Below are positions 2,699 to 8,131 of a stretch of DNA of 64,000 nt, one piece after another. Source of the stretch: Spirochaetaceae bacterium (lineage in GTDB: Bacteria > Spirochaetota > Spirochaetia > SZUA-6 > DRHE01); contig CP070696.1 of NCBI GenBank assembly GCA_020353535.1, forward strand, positions 2,761,086 to 2,825,085. The letters are read 5' to 3'. Numbering within the stretch: position 1 is the stretch's first letter; each line of letters starts with the position of its first letter. A program made the position numbers and the translations under genes. The notes beneath the pieces are model-generated. The model worked only from the letters and a program-made list of their open reading frames with translations, had not been told where the DNA came from and searched no databases.

Positions 2699-3181
2699 GT
2701 GAAGAAGTTGCTGTTTTTATTCCTGCTGCTGATCGGCGGCGCAATGACGCTGCAGGCGGTGGAGATCCCCGTGAGTATCGCCATGGATGAATCCCTGCCC
2801 TATCGGAAAGAGTTTCGCTACTACCTGGTCAGGGCAATCACCGACATCGAGAATGTGAAGATCGTGGAATCGGGTCAGGGGGATTGGTTCCGCATTCACG
2901 TTCTGTTGGTTGAGATGAAGTTGGCAAATGAAGTTTCGCTTGGTTATGCCATCAGCTTTTCGATCGTCGAGATCCCTTTTTATCTGCACTCCTACATCTT
3001 CGAGAACATCGATGCCGGTAAGAGGCAGGAAGTTACGGATAAACTGATTAAAAGCACAGTCTTCTATCGTGGTTCAGATATGATCGTTGTGGACAAAGCA
3101 AGCCTGGAGTCAGGAACAACGCGGATCCATACTTCCTTGAAGAAACTCATAGAAGAGCGGATCCGAAGCCAGTCTGAGTAA
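2699..3181 (+). CDS. Small secreted protein of unknown function
   Basis: 160 residues beginning with GTG; GGAG lies about 8 bases upstream. The N-terminus MKKLLFLFLLLIGGAMTLQAVE is a clear type I signal peptide with predicted cleavage after LQA, so the product should be periplasmic or surface-exposed. The mature part is mixed alpha/beta with no cysteines and no motif I can name; the C-terminal third is charged. It stands alone on the plus strand, convergent with the cyclase-fusion gene 13 bases downstream and divergent from the B12-receptor operon. I do not recognise the family. Confidence 0.75.
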   Translation: MKKLLFLFLLLIGGAMTLQAVEIPVSIAMDESLPYRKEFRYYLVRAITDIENVKIVESGQGDWFRIHVLLVEMKLANEVSLGYAISFSIVEIPFYLHSYIFENIDAGKRQEVTDKLIKSTVFYRGSDMIVVDKASLESGTTRIHTSLKKLIEERIRSQSE

Positions 3182-3194
3182 TGCGCGGACACCT

Positions 3195-4541
3195 TCAACC
3201 ACTCGGCCTTTCCAACATCAGCATGGTCTTCCCTGCTCTAAACAGGCTCACCCGCCCGGTGGATTGAGAGATCACGACAGCGAGTGCATCGGTTACCGCG
3301 GTGATCCCTGCAGCAGCTGCATGGCGGGCTCCCAGACCCGAAGGGAGAACCTCCAAGGCGACCTCGGGACGAAGGTAGGTTCCCGCCGCCTGCACAACTC
3401 CGTCGCCGCTGATCAGGAAGGCTCCGTCGATGGTGGCAAACTCCTTCAGCGTTTCCTCCAGGCTGGGATCCAGGACACTCTTTTCCTCCTCCGTGTATCC
3501 CTTAAACGGATTGATCACCAGCTGCCGGCTCATGGTTCGAACCTGTTCGAAATCACCGACTACGAATATCGTCCCGATTGCCTTTCCCTCCCTGCCCTCC
3601 CGTGCGATTGATGTGGCGATTTGCAGAATCCGTTCCAACACTGCCGGGGCAACATCTCCGAGCAGATCGGCGGGGTAGGTAGGCAGGAAGGTCGGTAACT
3701 CCTGGGACAGGTCGATGACCATCAGGGAGTCGAGGACACCGGAATCGGGATGCCCGAAAAGGCTGACAATACGGTCCTTCCGGGAAAGAAATCCATGACT
3801 CAGGGAAAGAAGCAGGGCAAGGTCGATCTGGTTGGCGCGATTCAAGCCGGAGAAAGGGAGGTGGATGATTTTGTGCGGGAAGGACAGCTGGTTCGTATCG
3901 ATAGGCCTTCGACTGGTGACGAGTAGAAAGGTCGTCTCCGATTTCAGCGATCGAAGGGGATCGAGATTTTGGAGTGCATCCGTGTTGAGAAGAATCGCTT
4001 CGGCCCGGACCTCCCTTGCCAAATCGAGGGCATGAGACAGGATAATCGTATTGATACCGGTGGTTCGAGACGGTGCGATCATTCGGGTGAGCGCTTCGGG
4101 TTTGTGGAGGATTTCGTAGATTTCGGCCACGGAGGTTGCGGAAAGTATGGCCCGGCGGCTGGATTCGGAACGGAACGTTCGAGCCACTTCGGCCAGAAGC
4201 AGAATATGCTGGTCCGCTCGTCTAGCATCACCGAGGATGAGAATGAGCAGATGAACGGGATGCCCGTCCGCTGACTCGTATTCGATTCCCGCCGGGCTCA
4301 CCCCTATGGATACGATGAAGCGATCCAGATCGGGCAGGCGGGCGTGAGGGATGGCAATACCTGGAGCCACCCAGGAGCTGACTACACTTTCGCGGTCCTC
4401 TACCGCCTGGAGGGTTTTTCGGAGGTTCAGGGAGGTCACCTCCGCACAGGTGCGTTCAACCAATTCCCGGATTGCGGGAACTTTTTTTTTCTGTTCTATG
4501 TAAAATACTCGATCTTGACTGAGATAGTCCTGCAGATTCAT
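3195..4541 (-). CDS. PTS EIIA - PK_C-like - diadenylate cyclase (DAC) fusion protein
   Basis: 448 residues. Residues 1-150 are a PTS EIIA domain of the fructose/nitrogen class with the phospho-acceptor His66 in IAIPHAR. Residues about 155-300 (ALDLAREVRAEAILLNTDAL and following) resemble the pyruvate-kinase C-terminal-type domain seen in archaeal DacZ. Residues about 310-440 are a DisA_N/DAC domain with DGA at 372-374 and GARHAAAAG at 404-412. The family catalyses c-di-AMP synthesis from two ATP. The usual RHR motif reads RHA here (406-408), so activity is uncertain. MNLQDYL is a typical EIIA start, but no good Shine-Dalgarno precedes it; a four-codon ORF overlaps the start instead. It is the last gene of an apparent three-gene operon. 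It could be a phospho-relay-controlled cyclase or a non-catalytic sensor. Confidence 0.82.
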   Translation of the reverse strand: MNLQDYLSQDRVFYIEQKKKVPAIRELVERTCAEVTSLNLRKTLQAVEDRESVVSSWVAPGIAIPHARLPDLDRFIVSIGVSPAGIEYESADGHPVHLLILILGDARRADQHILLLAEVARTFRSESSRRAILSATSVAEIYEILHKPEALTRMIAPSRTTGINTIILSHALDLAREVRAEAILLNTDALQNLDPLRSLKSETTFLLVTSRRPIDTNQLSFPHKIIHLPFSGLNRANQIDLALLLSLSHGFLSRKDRIVSLFGHPDSGVLDSLMVIDLSQELPTFLPTYPADLLGDVAPAVLERILQIATSIAREGREGKAIGTIFVVGDFEQVRTMSRQLVINPFKGYTEEEKSVLDPSLEETLKEFATIDGAFLISGDGVVQAAGTYLRPEVALEVLPSGLGARHAAAAGITAVTDALAVVISQSTGRVSLFRAGKTMLMLERPSG

Positions 4542-4601: not shown

Positions 4602-4991
4602 TCAGGTGTGGACAGTGTGGGTGGAGCTCAGAACACGGATTGCTTTGGAGAGGTATGTGTCTTTGACAAGGAGGTAATCTGTATTAAAGGTGGAGATGAC
4701 GAACGTGGGAATGCCCGCTTGCGCCAACGGAGCGGTAAGGCTGGCTATTATTCCGATTTCCTCAAAAGGTAGAGGACCCTGCACCTGCAGTGCCCGCCAT
4801 CCCGATTCGGTTTCCGTCTCGGCGGGGGGGTGGCCGTCCGGGCAGACGATCGAAAGCTCCTCCGCAGTTCGCGTCACTGCGTAGAAGCTGCCGGCCAGCG
4901 CCCATCGGGGAATCGGAGTGTCTTTGGGGAGCCGGCAAATCGCCAATCTGTCAGGAAGAAGGATCAGTTCCATTGACTTTACCCCTGTCAT
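4602..4991 (-). CDS. ACT-domain protein (amino-acid-binding type)
   Basis: 129 residues. The pattern (LPDRLAICRLP, then GSFYAVTRTAEELSIVCP, then WRALQVQGPLPFEEIGIIASLTAPLAQAGIPTFVISTFNTDYLLV) is that of stand-alone tandem ACT proteins of the CASTOR-like/ACT_7 kind, which usually bind amino acids. The start overlaps the stop of the upstream zinc-ribbon gene (ATGA at 4991-4988), so translation is probably coupled. A second ATG lies six codons in. The EIIA-DAC fusion follows after 60 bases. An amino-acid sensor next to a putative c-di-AMP synthase suggests linked nutrient signalling (inference). Confidence 0.8.
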   Translation of the reverse strand: MTGVKSMELILLPDRLAICRLPKDTPIPRWALAGSFYAVTRTAEELSIVCPDGHPPAETETESGWRALQVQGPLPFEEIGIIASLTAPLAQAGIPTFVISTFNTDYLLVKDTYLSKAIRVLSSTHTVHT

Positions 4992-6886
4992 ACGGCTACG
5001 AAACCGAAGATCAGAATGGCTGCTACGATCAGGGAGAAGACCACCATCACGATTCCGAGGCTCGGCTCCCAGCGAAACTTCCGGACTTGGTCGGCGATCG
5101 ATCTTCTGAAATAGAGCTCTTCAGGAGGAGTTTGTTTTCCGCTCGTTCCCAGGAATACAGCCAGAAGTACAGCCGCTGCAAGCAGGACAATCGTAGCGAT
5201 GACCCCTTGGATGTTCTGCCAGGAAATCGGCACCCGCCTGATGGGAATCGGCAGTTCCGAAGCTGCCGTGAAACCGGCCAGCAGAAACAGGGGGGAGTAG
5301 ATGCTTGTGCCGGCGGCGAACAGAACCGCGGCGACGAAACCCATGGGGAGTTTCCAGAGGATGTCGGGAAATGCCGGGGGGAGCAGGGTAAAAAGTAAGG
5401 TGGGCATCAACACCTGCAGCCTGCCGCGGCGCAGCACCCAGAGATTCTCCGCCGCCCCAAACACGAAAAGACCCACAATCCCAATCCCGCCAAGCTCGAA
5501 CAGGCGACCCGGACTTCCCGGTGCCGCCGAGAGTATGGAGGAGGGCAGAGGTATGGGAAGCACGAGCGAACCAAGCGTCAGGAGCAGGCTCCGATAAAAC
5601 ATGCCTACCAGAGCCCCGATCGCAAGCGGCAGGAGAACCGTACGCACGGAGAAATGGCGAAAGCGAAAAAAAACGAGTGGGTTTGTCTTTTTGGGGATTA
5701 TGAACCAGAGGATGGGCAGCAAACCCGCGAGCAGAGCCGGAATTACTCTGGACATAAAATCGGGTTGGAAGCGGAACAGACTTGCGCCTAGACTCAGGCC
5801 GGCGGCCAGGACAACGAAAGCCAGGACCATCCAGCCGAGGGGTTGTCCGTTCAAGGTTTGGGTTCGCCTGCGAGGCACAATCCCCTTATTGCTATCCACG
5901 CCTCTCTTGAAGGCGAGCAGCCGATTGGCGACCGCGCTACCTCGAAACCAGGCCGCCCAGGCGCCGCCTTTTTCCACCGAATCCTCGTCAACAGCAGGCA
6001 GGGTGGCTTGGAGAAAGAAGCTGTCTTGACGTGACGAATCACTGCCGTCCCGGGAATGAAGAATCAGAGTCGGGGTCTTTTGACGGCTCAGCATTGCGTA
6101 GCGCAAACTTCTACGCGATTGAATCAGATCATGATTCAACGCTTCTGGTCGGAAACCGGTAGCGAGGATCTTTGCCAATCCTAGAGCATGGGGCTGGGGA
6201 AGCTTAGAACTCCAGAGGTCTTGAAGCATCGATACCAGCAGCTTTTCCCGATCTCCGTTGTGATCCGCCTCGTTGATGATCGTGGCAAGTTTACGGGTGG
6301 TTGACCGGCTCGAAGATGGATCCCCCAGACGGAGATCCGGCTCAATGAGAACTAAGGAGGTGATGGAGTCCTGTCGACGAGCCGCGACATCCAGGGCAAG
6401 CGGAGCCGATCCCAGATGAGCCAGCAGGTGAAAGCTCGAGGCGCCCACATGCCGCTTTAATGGATCGATGTGATCGCTTAAAAGGGAAGCGTAGGATCGG
6501 TTTTCAAGAGGCTGGGGATTTCTGGACGTCCCAGGAAACTCGAGGTAACACACGCGAAAGTACTCCTCGAAAGTGTCCATCAAGCCGTGCATCACGTCGT
6601 GGGGAAGCGATGGGTGGGCGGGGAGGACGATGACCGGTGCCCGATCTTCCCGGGGACCGACGCACTCTACCCACAGCTGTCCTACCTTGATTCCCCGACA
6701 ACCTAGAGAGTCCTCTACCAGGGCCTGGTATGCCGCCGGGTACTCCTGGGGGAAGAGCCTTCCCAAGCTCAGGGGAAAGGATTTTTGACAACGGCTGCAG
6801 CGGATCCGCACCGTTTTTCCTTTTGGAAGATGGTCCGGTATGCGCACGCCTCCGCTGAAGCTGCAGGAGGGACATCGAAATCGCAT
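4988..6886 (-). CDS. Zinc-ribbon, alpha/beta-hydrolase-like, polytopic membrane protein
   Basis: 632 residues. The start MRFRCPSC is an MJ0042-type zinc ribbon with CxxC at 5-8 and a second CxxC about 25 residues later. Residues about 50-330 look like an alpha/beta-hydrolase fold (APVIVLPAHPSLPHD, then HLLAHLGSAPLALDVA, then TSLVLIEPDLRLGD and TPTLILHSRDGS). The usual nucleophile elbow G-x-S-x-G is replaced by AHLGS. The C-terminal half holds about eight to ten membrane segments. The frame stays open upstream to 7339, but that extension overlaps the divergent maturase gene and reads like antisense, so I start at 6886. It heads the operon with the ACT protein and EIIA-DAC fusion. Function unknown; the missing elbow suggests a non-enzymatic or altered role. 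Confidence 0.68.
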   Translation of the reverse strand: MRFRCPSCSFSGGVRIPDHLPKGKTVRIRCSRCQKSFPLSLGRLFPQEYPAAYQALVEDSLGCRGIKVGQLWVECVGPREDRAPVIVLPAHPSLPHDVMHGLMDTFEEYFRVCYLEFPGTSRNPQPLENRSYASLLSDHIDPLKRHVGASSFHLLAHLGSAPLALDVAARRQDSITSLVLIEPDLRLGDPSSSRSTTRKLATIINEADHNGDREKLLVSMLQDLWSSKLPQPHALGLAKILATGFRPEALNHDLIQSRRSLRYAMLSRQKTPTLILHSRDGSDSSRQDSFFLQATLPAVDEDSVEKGGAWAAWFRGSAVANRLLAFKRGVDSNKGIVPRRRTQTLNGQPLGWMVLAFVVLAAGLSLGASLFRFQPDFMSRVIPALLAGLLPILWFIIPKKTNPLVFFRFRHFSVRTVLLPLAIGALVGMFYRSLLLTLGSLVLPIPLPSSILSAAPGSPGRLFELGGIGIVGLFVFGAAENLWVLRRGRLQVLMPTLLFTLLPPAFPDILWKLPMGFVAAVLFAAGTSIYSPLFLLAGFTAASELPIPIRRVPISWQNIQGVIATIVLLAAAVLLAVFLGTSGKQTPPEELYFRRSIADQVRKFRWEPSLGIVMVVFSLIVAAILIFGFVAV

Positions 6887-6931
6887 CGCCCCCACATTGA
6901 TGATTTTCCTTGTTTTTGTCAAACTCCGTAT

Positions 6932-8131
6932 ATGGCTGGAGATCAGAGGCCGACGCGATTCTCCCTGTTGATAAAACCGACCTCCGCGGACTGTAATCTG
7001 GCTTGTACGTACTGCTTCTACCTGCCAAAAGCCGGTCTCTATCCCCAGAGCTCGCGGCATCGCATGTCCGATAGCACGCTGAAGCATATCATCTCCAAAT
7101 ACATGGCGACGGATCAGGACACCTACTCCTTTGGCTGGCAGGGTGGAGAGCCCACGCTGATGGGAGTGGATTTTTTTCGAAATGTCGTGGACCTGCAGAG
7201 CCGCTGCGGCCGTCCCGGTTCGATAGTAGCAAATGGTCTGCAGACCAATGCCACGCTGATCACAGACGAGTTGGCCCGTCTGCTGGCGGAGTATCACTTT
7301 CTCCTGGGTGTCAGTCTGGATGGTCCGGAAGAAATCCACAACACCTACAGAAAAAATCTAAAAGGAACGGGTTCATATAAGCGGGTCATCGAGGGGATCG
7401 GGCTGCTCAAAAAGCATCACGTGGAGTTCAACATCCTCATCGCCGTGAATGCCGCAAACGTGGAAAAGGCTCGCGAGATCTACAATTTTCTTCTGGATCT
7501 GGACATCCGCTTTCACCAGTACATCCCCATCGTGGAGTTCGATGACCAGGGCGGCCCATTACCCTTTTCCGTCGACGGATCGAGGTGGGGTGCCTTTCTA
7601 AAAGAGCTCTTCGAAATATGGTATCCCGATTCAGGGCGGGTATCGGTTCGTCTCTTCGATGCCATCCTCACCTATCTGGTGGAAGGTTCGCCGATTCTCT
7701 GCACCATGGGAGAAGATTGCCGGCAGTACTTCCTGGTCGAGTACAACGGGGACATCTATCCCTGCGATTTTTTTGCAAGCCCCGAACTGCGGCTGGGTAA
7801 TGTGCTGGATACGGACTGGAATGCGCTGTTGGAATCACCCGGCTACCGGGTCTTTGGGGAGCAAAAATCCGATTGGAACGAGATCTGCGCTTCCTGTGCC
7901 TTTCTCAAGCTCTGTATGGGGGATTGCCTGAAGCATCGTTTCTACGGTGCTCCCGGGCTTCAATCTGATCCCCGACGGTTGAGCTGGCTGTGCTCCGGGT
8001 GGAAGGATTTCTACCAGACCTGCCTTCCCGCTTTCCAGCGCATCGCCCGCCGCATCCAGCGGCAGCGCAGCCGGGAGCTGAATACGAGGCTGGCGTCCTC
8101 GGCCATTCGATCCTCCGAAAACAAAAGATGA
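6932..8131 (+). CDS. Anaerobic sulfatase-maturating enzyme (radical SAM, SPASM)
   Basis: 399 residues. The radical-SAM motif CNLACTYC gives C21, C25 and C28; GWQGGEPTLMG and VSLDGPEEIHNTYR follow. The C-terminal cysteine-rich SPASM region includes CTMGEDCRQYFLVEYNGDIYPCDFF and CASCAFLKLCMGDC. This matches enzymes that oxidise a Cys or Ser in a sulfatase active site to formylglycine. A longer frame starts at 6785 but would overlap the divergent zinc-ribbon gene; ATG 6932 matches the usual family start. The start has no clear Shine-Dalgarno. The lipid kinase gene overlaps its stop (ATGA). A Cys-type sulfatase at 20177-21793 is a likely client. Confidence 0.88.
   Translation: MAGDQRPTRFSLLIKPTSADCNLACTYCFYLPKAGLYPQSSRHRMSDSTLKHIISKYMATDQDTYSFGWQGGEPTLMGVDFFRNVVDLQSRCGRPGSIVANGLQTNATLITDELARLLAEYHFLLGVSLDGPEEIHNTYRKNLKGTGSYKRVIEGIGLLKKHHVEFNILIAVNAANVEKAREIYNFLLDLDIRFHQYIPIVEFDDQGGPLPFSVDGSRWGAFLKELFEIWYPDSGRVSVRLFDAILTYLVEGSPILCTMGEDCRQYFLVEYNGDIYPCDFFASPELRLGNVLDTDWNALLESPGYRVFGEQKSDWNEICASCAFLKLCMGDCLKHRFYGAPGLQSDPRRLSWLCSGWKDFYQTCLPAFQRIARRIQRQRSRELNTRLASSAIRSSENKR

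Follow-up and report, generated by a model that had tools for sequence, protein, structure and literature searches.

PTSNtr controls K+ transport in proteobacteria, and PTSNtr and c-di-AMP each regulate K+ balance. To our knowledge, the control of diadenylate cyclases is poorly understood outside of CdaA (CdaR and GlmM) and DisA (DNA). Two kinds of cyclase are close to the protein described here. DacZ, such as HVO_1660 from Haloferax volcanii, is soluble and joins an N-terminal sensor-like domain to a C-terminal diadenylate cyclase (DAC) domain with NPF, DGA, and G-x-G-x-RH motifs. The third residue of the RHx motif is not arginine in the haloarchaeal members that we read (Haladaptatus). CdaA (or DacA) has the same DAC fold with DGA, RH, and S motifs, but it also has a transmembrane domain (CdaA_N) and a histidine before DGA. 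On the PTS side, EIIA-Ntr (PtsN) of PTSNtr has the fold of 1a6j and a phospho-histidine, in a regulatory-only setting. EIIA also occurs as a plug-in regulatory domain in HTH_17-EIIA regulators and in an EIIA-CBS-CitMHS transporter, whose outputs are transcription or transport.

We analyzed a 64,000-nucleotide stretch of the genome of a Spirochaetaceae bacterium (the window), which contains a gene that shares features with all of these. It encodes a DacZ-type protein with an extra EIIA domain at the N-terminus. Its middle domain is DacZ_P, whereas the haloarchaeal proteins have DACZ_N; unlike CdaA, it lacks CdaA_N and the histidine before DGA; and unlike PtsN, its EIIA is joined to an enzyme, with a second messenger as the predicted output. 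The features of the gene and its surroundings are:

3195..4541, minus strand: EIIA-DacZ fusion gene, an ATG-start ORF of 448 amino acids (76% identity in a same-genus genome)
4107..4526, minus strand: PTS_EIIA_2 domain, residues 6-145 (Pfam; top structural match is EIIA-Ntr 1a6j)
4344..4346, minus strand: codon CAC for H66, the putative phospho-acceptor (histidine in 66/73 fusions and 13/13 further relatives)
3699..4046, minus strand: DacZ_P middle domain, residues 166-281, PK_C-like, a probable sensor or linker (Pfam)
3231..3608, minus strand: DAC (diadenylate cyclase) domain, residues 312-437 (Pfam, structural match)
3420..3428, minus strand: D372-G-A catalytic motif (D and G invariant, 89/89)
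3318..3326, minus strand: R406-H-A motif, codons CGC-CAT-GCA (3326-3318; R and H invariant, 89/89; several residues occur at the third position in the family)
4602..4991, minus strand: ACT-domain protein of 129 amino acids (A9CJY8-like_N and ACT_7, E = 7e-22), upstream of the fusion and likely in the same operon
4988..7339, minus strand: ORF of 783 amino acids (true start uncertain) with zinc-ribbon, alpha/beta-hydrolase, and membrane parts; first gene of the likely operon
2699-3181, plus strand: protein of 160 amino acids with a signal-peptide-like start and without a Pfam family, convergent to EIIA-DacZ

An earlier note on this DNA had proposed an EIIA domain fused to a DacZ-like DAC domain, and all three domains score above Pfam's gathering cut-offs (PTS_EIIA_2 or PF00359, E = 3e-21, 76.3 bits versus 27; DacZ_P, E = 4.7e-11, 42.9 bits versus 27.4; DAC or PF02457, E = 7e-22, 77.7 bits versus 27). 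H66, D372-G-A, and R406-H-A are where the note had placed them, and its description of the middle domain as PK_C-like was fair: the Pfam family is DacZ_P, and one homologue has a weak match to PK_C (E = 6e-4, below the cut-off). The 448-residue protein has no matches to Pfam's transmembrane families, so it appears to be without a membrane anchor. The best matches in NCBIfam are to haloarchaeal DacZ over residues 180-443 (NF041371, 120.6 bits) and to PtsN over residues 20-145 (TIGR01419, 53.0 bits), and both are below the equivalog cut-offs (430 and 138.7 bits, respectively). Judged by its DacZ_P and DAC domains, the protein is DacZ-type, but it lies outside the haloarchaeal DacZ equivalog. It has the DAC domain and fold, the DGA and RH motifs, the DacZ-type layout, and an EIIA with its active-site histidine. 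The region is not new to everyone: the three domains have Pfam families, and DacZ_P was named as a probable sensor domain.

EIIA-DacZ is a conserved fusion family that is found across several bacterial phyla. Among 296 genomes sampled across the phylum, six encode the full fusion (our own and G130, G253, G293, G021, and G008). We found a strong match in 15 of 41 nearer relatives, and in 14 of these it spans the EIIA part. A scan of contigs from genomes gave 80 loci, and we gathered over 80 homologous fusions in total. Judging from record titles, they are from Spirochaetes, Verrucomicrobia (mostly Opitutales), Fibrobacteres/Chitinispirillia, and Planctomycetes, and also from Kiritimatiellae, Hydrogenedentes, Brocadiaceae, and Wallbacteria. 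We aligned 89 DacZ-type sequences (loci from the contig scan plus matches from the phylum), of which 73 have an EIIA domain. An unrooted tree of the DacZ part, from a quick method that left many forks open, requires three switches between the fused and the stand-alone state, and hence only a few fusion events. One of these switches (L087) is probably due to a contig that is cut at its edge.

The same-genus homologue is 76% identical overall (EIIA, 69%; middle domain, 75%; DAC, 86%). Comparing the two genes by NG86, dN/dS is about 0.14 for the whole gene and near 0.1-0.2 for each part (EIIA, 0.11; DAC, 0.08). This homologue, the purifying selection in each domain, and the spread across several phyla rule out a chance or mis-assembled fusion. 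We also noticed that the EIIA-DacZ of genome G253 (L009) has two long low-complexity inserts that are rich in proline and serine. One separates EIIA from the middle domain, and the other is inside the middle domain.

The predicted fold agrees with the domain assignments. An AlphaFold model, built from an alignment of 74 homologues, has a mean pLDDT of 92.1 and a pTM of 0.74; in line with the pTM, the model suggests that the orientation of the domains relative to each other is less certain. When we compared the model to the PDB with Foldseek, the top hit was EIIA-Ntr (1a6j), matched by the EIIA part (TM by target 0.92, 1.6 Å); other EIIA structures and many CdaA structures came next. The DAC part resembles CdaA structures, with TM by target of up to about 0.67, and no PDB chain matched the DacZ-specific part of the protein. 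With its matches to EIIA-Ntr and CdaA, the predicted fold backs up the sequence evidence for both the EIIA and the DAC domain. The earlier note had named a DAC fold in residues 310-440 as a test for structure prediction, and this fold is predicted with confidence.

The note had also asked whether this protein, with RHA in place of RHR, still cyclises ATP. The family alignment speaks against a doubtful active site. Position 408, the third residue of the motif, is A in 47 of the 89 sequences, T in 13, E in seven, R in just six, V in five, and Q in four. In contrast, all 89 have G316-R-E-G, N344-P-F, E367, D372, G373, G402, G404, R406, and H407, and 88 have S425 (the exception is a row with a gap). 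Since the third residue varies while D, G, R, and H are invariant, RHA is not an alteration relative to the protein's own family. Non-arginine residues at this position also occur in other kinds of DAC proteins: two Haladaptatus plasmid DacZ proteins have GTRHHAAAA (RHH), and the one that we scanned passes NCBI's cut-off for DacZ (441.8 versus 430), while the CdaA-like proteins of two carrier genomes have RHT and RHH. The strongest argument is that EIIA-DacZ is the only DAC protein that we found in 16 of the 30 genomes searched for DAC, many of these 16 being MAGs of unstated completeness but with the isolates Puniceicoccaceae K14 and 5H among them; none of the 16 has arginine at position 408. 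From the alignment and these genomes, we reject RHA as a motif defect.

If the missing arginine did block the use of ATP, then the DAC domain might be catalytically dead and merely bind nucleotide or c-di-AMP. Changing RHR to AAA does inactivate the enzyme from M. tuberculosis (PMC3328451), but all three residues were changed together in that mutant, and R406 and H407 are intact here. In the CdaA of Leptospira, activity is lost with D172A and likewise with R203A, which changes the motif's first R (PMC12974146), and EIIA-DacZ retains the equivalents of both residues. The residue after S425 is Q instead of E, which could also be taken as a sign of inactivity, but Q426 is present in 15 of the 89 homologues. 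The third residue is not arginine in 83 of 89 homologues, including those that are their genome's sole DAC. Finally, DacZ from H. volcanii is active with Mn2+ (PMC6741144); the RHH was read in Haladaptatus DacZ, not in the H. volcanii protein. Overall, a dead enzyme is very unlikely, and EIIA-DacZ very probably makes c-di-AMP from ATP.

The phospho-site of the EIIA part is also conserved in most of the family. The position of H66 is histidine in 66 of the 73 fusions, and the 13 additional relatives among the spirochaetes have histidine without exception. In the other seven fusions it is Gln (five), Lys (one), or lost along with its loop (one), and the DAC motifs of these proteins are intact. 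The six substitutions are all in one Fibrobacterota/Chitinivibrionia clade, and the deletion is in a MAG from Wallbacteria. As judged from the alignment, the constraint on H66 is strong, not absolute. The usual second active-site histidine of EIIA (H112 here) is histidine in only 30 of 73.

We considered that the cyclase might be active but that its EIIA might be a structural or docking module, sensing a ligand or a partner, rather than being controlled by phosphorylation of H66. There is precedent for this: when it is not phosphorylated, EIIA-Ntr acts on partners that it binds, KdpD among them (PMC9239096). We tested Fibrobacterota-type genomes that carry a Gln or Lys version, and they still encode EI and HPr; the phospho-site was thus lost with the PTS in place, and an EIIA part can be retained without being phosphorylated. 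Chitinispirillaceae genome G308 encodes two paralogues, one with Gln (L146, PQA) and one with His (L147, PHA), which by these motifs are a natural phospho-blind pair. However, histidine is retained in most of the fusions and in every one of the further spirochaete relatives; the losses are confined to one Fibrobacterota clade and to Wallbacteria; and among 22 fusion-encoding genomes tested, EI is present in 21 and HPr in 19. In the Wallbacteria genome (G307) whose fusion (L058) lost the H66 loop, we found no match for either EI or HPr, but this co-loss is a single case in a MAG that may be incomplete. We consider a docking role to be the main rival to phospho-control and doubtful, perhaps a one-in-four prospect. 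The likeliest reading of these patterns is that phosphorylation was the ancestral control of EIIA-DacZ and that some copies have dropped it.

The host genome has what phosphorylation of H66 would require. It encodes EI twice and HPr twice, in a canonical EI, an EIIA-man-HPr-EI protein, and a free HPr. It also has eight EIIA_2 domains; among these are single-domain proteins, two HTH_17-EIIA regulators, the EIIA-CBS-CitMHS transporter, and EIIA-DacZ. We did not find any EIIC of family PF02378, which is the EIIC family that our search covered and which was detected in seven control genomes. Given EI, HPr, and this many EIIA_2 domains in a genome where PF02378 was not found, the PTS branch of the fusion is likely to be purely regulatory, and it most likely reports the state of PEP/pyruvate or of nitrogen. 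Alternatively, phosphoryl groups might flow to sugar uptake via an unrecognised EIIB/EIIC that the EIIA serves, in which case the cyclase would read sugar flux only. The presence of EI, HPr, and several EIIA_2 domains would fit with this, as would the fructose-like sequences of two of the single-domain EIIAs. But besides the missing PF02378, there is no EIIB or EIIC beside the fusion gene, and other EIIA domains of this genome sit on HTH regulators and on the CBS-transporter protein. We view sugar uptake as a highly improbable role. The EIIA-CBS-CitMHS fusion (L124, in the C1:1629385 region) is another example of EIIA as a plug-in regulator, in this case of a transporter.

The same genome encodes a separate CdaA-type cyclase, a PgpH-type protein (7TM-7TMR_HD, in a 769-amino-acid frame), and proteins with TrkA_C domains, which between them provide for the synthesis of c-di-AMP, its removal, and its likely receptors. 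These may be targets of EIIA-DacZ.

We propose that EIIA-DacZ is a cytosolic DacZ-type cyclase that makes c-di-AMP from ATP and whose N-terminal EIIA is of the regulatory (Ntr-like) type. EI would phosphorylate HPr, which would hand the phosphate to H66. The state of H66, acting via the DacZ_P domain, would alter the assembly or the geometry of the DAC domains and hence the rate of c-di-AMP synthesis. c-di-AMP would then carry the PEP/pyruvate or nitrogen state to the transport of K+ or osmolytes, alongside the separate CdaA. The link from phosphorelay state to c-di-AMP that the earlier note had suggested fits with the evidence: EIIA is intact with H66, DAC is intact, EI and HPr are present, and PF02378 was not found. 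We think that phospho-dependent control of the cyclase is probable. The proposal as a whole, of an active DacZ-type cyclase whose c-di-AMP synthesis is set by the regulatory PTS through EIIA, has a somewhat better than even chance of being right, and for K+ as the output the chances are roughly even.

If this is true, then a single polypeptide joins PTSNtr and c-di-AMP directly. More broadly, c-di-AMP could be a direct output of the regulatory PTS in several phyla, with EIIA-DacZ converting the PEP or nitrogen state, as the sole c-di-AMP synthase in some lineages, with phospho-blind copies in a Fibrobacterota branch and both kinds in one genome; we would put this broader view at even odds. The phospho-blind paralogues, and the genomes with EIIA-DacZ as the sole DAC found, are ready natural controls. 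Galperin 2023 is reportedly a catalogue of DAC architectures, and it may list an EIIA fusion. In the other literature, as far as we searched it, we found no experimental description of an EIIA-DacZ fusion, no pairing of "c-di-AMP" with "EIIA domain," and no mention of EIIA in two papers that cite the catalogue. Nor did this literature include a report of inactive EIIA-DAC fusions, which the earlier note had named as grounds for refutation.

As the earlier note had pointed out, an ACT-domain gene lies just upstream of EIIA-DacZ. The gap between the two is 60 bp, and the 783-amino-acid ORF overlaps the start of the ACT gene by 4 bp; the three genes are apparently co-transcribed. The one same-genus relative that we examined retains all three, with the ACT protein (70% identical) also upstream, as well as the convergent 160-amino-acid gene (47% identical). 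We did not find an ACT homologue beside the fusions at the other fetched loci. As it is near the fusion only in this genus among the loci examined, ACT seems to be a lineage-specific companion. Across the fetched loci, there was no operon partner that is conserved across phyla, and no PTS gene and no K+ transporter is a conserved neighbor of the fusion. We also considered a role in defence, but PADLOC matched only its generic diadenylate cyclase model, and the two upstream genes had no PADLOC match, so we rejected this. Other lineages have neighbors of their own. NuoA is upstream of the fusion at 11 loci from Verrucomicrobiota. A GPAT-like acyltransferase is upstream at eight Fibrobacterota-type loci, and at four of these (L035, L043, L046, and L047) glucose-6-phosphate isomerase is downstream, so that EIIA-DacZ sits between the two.
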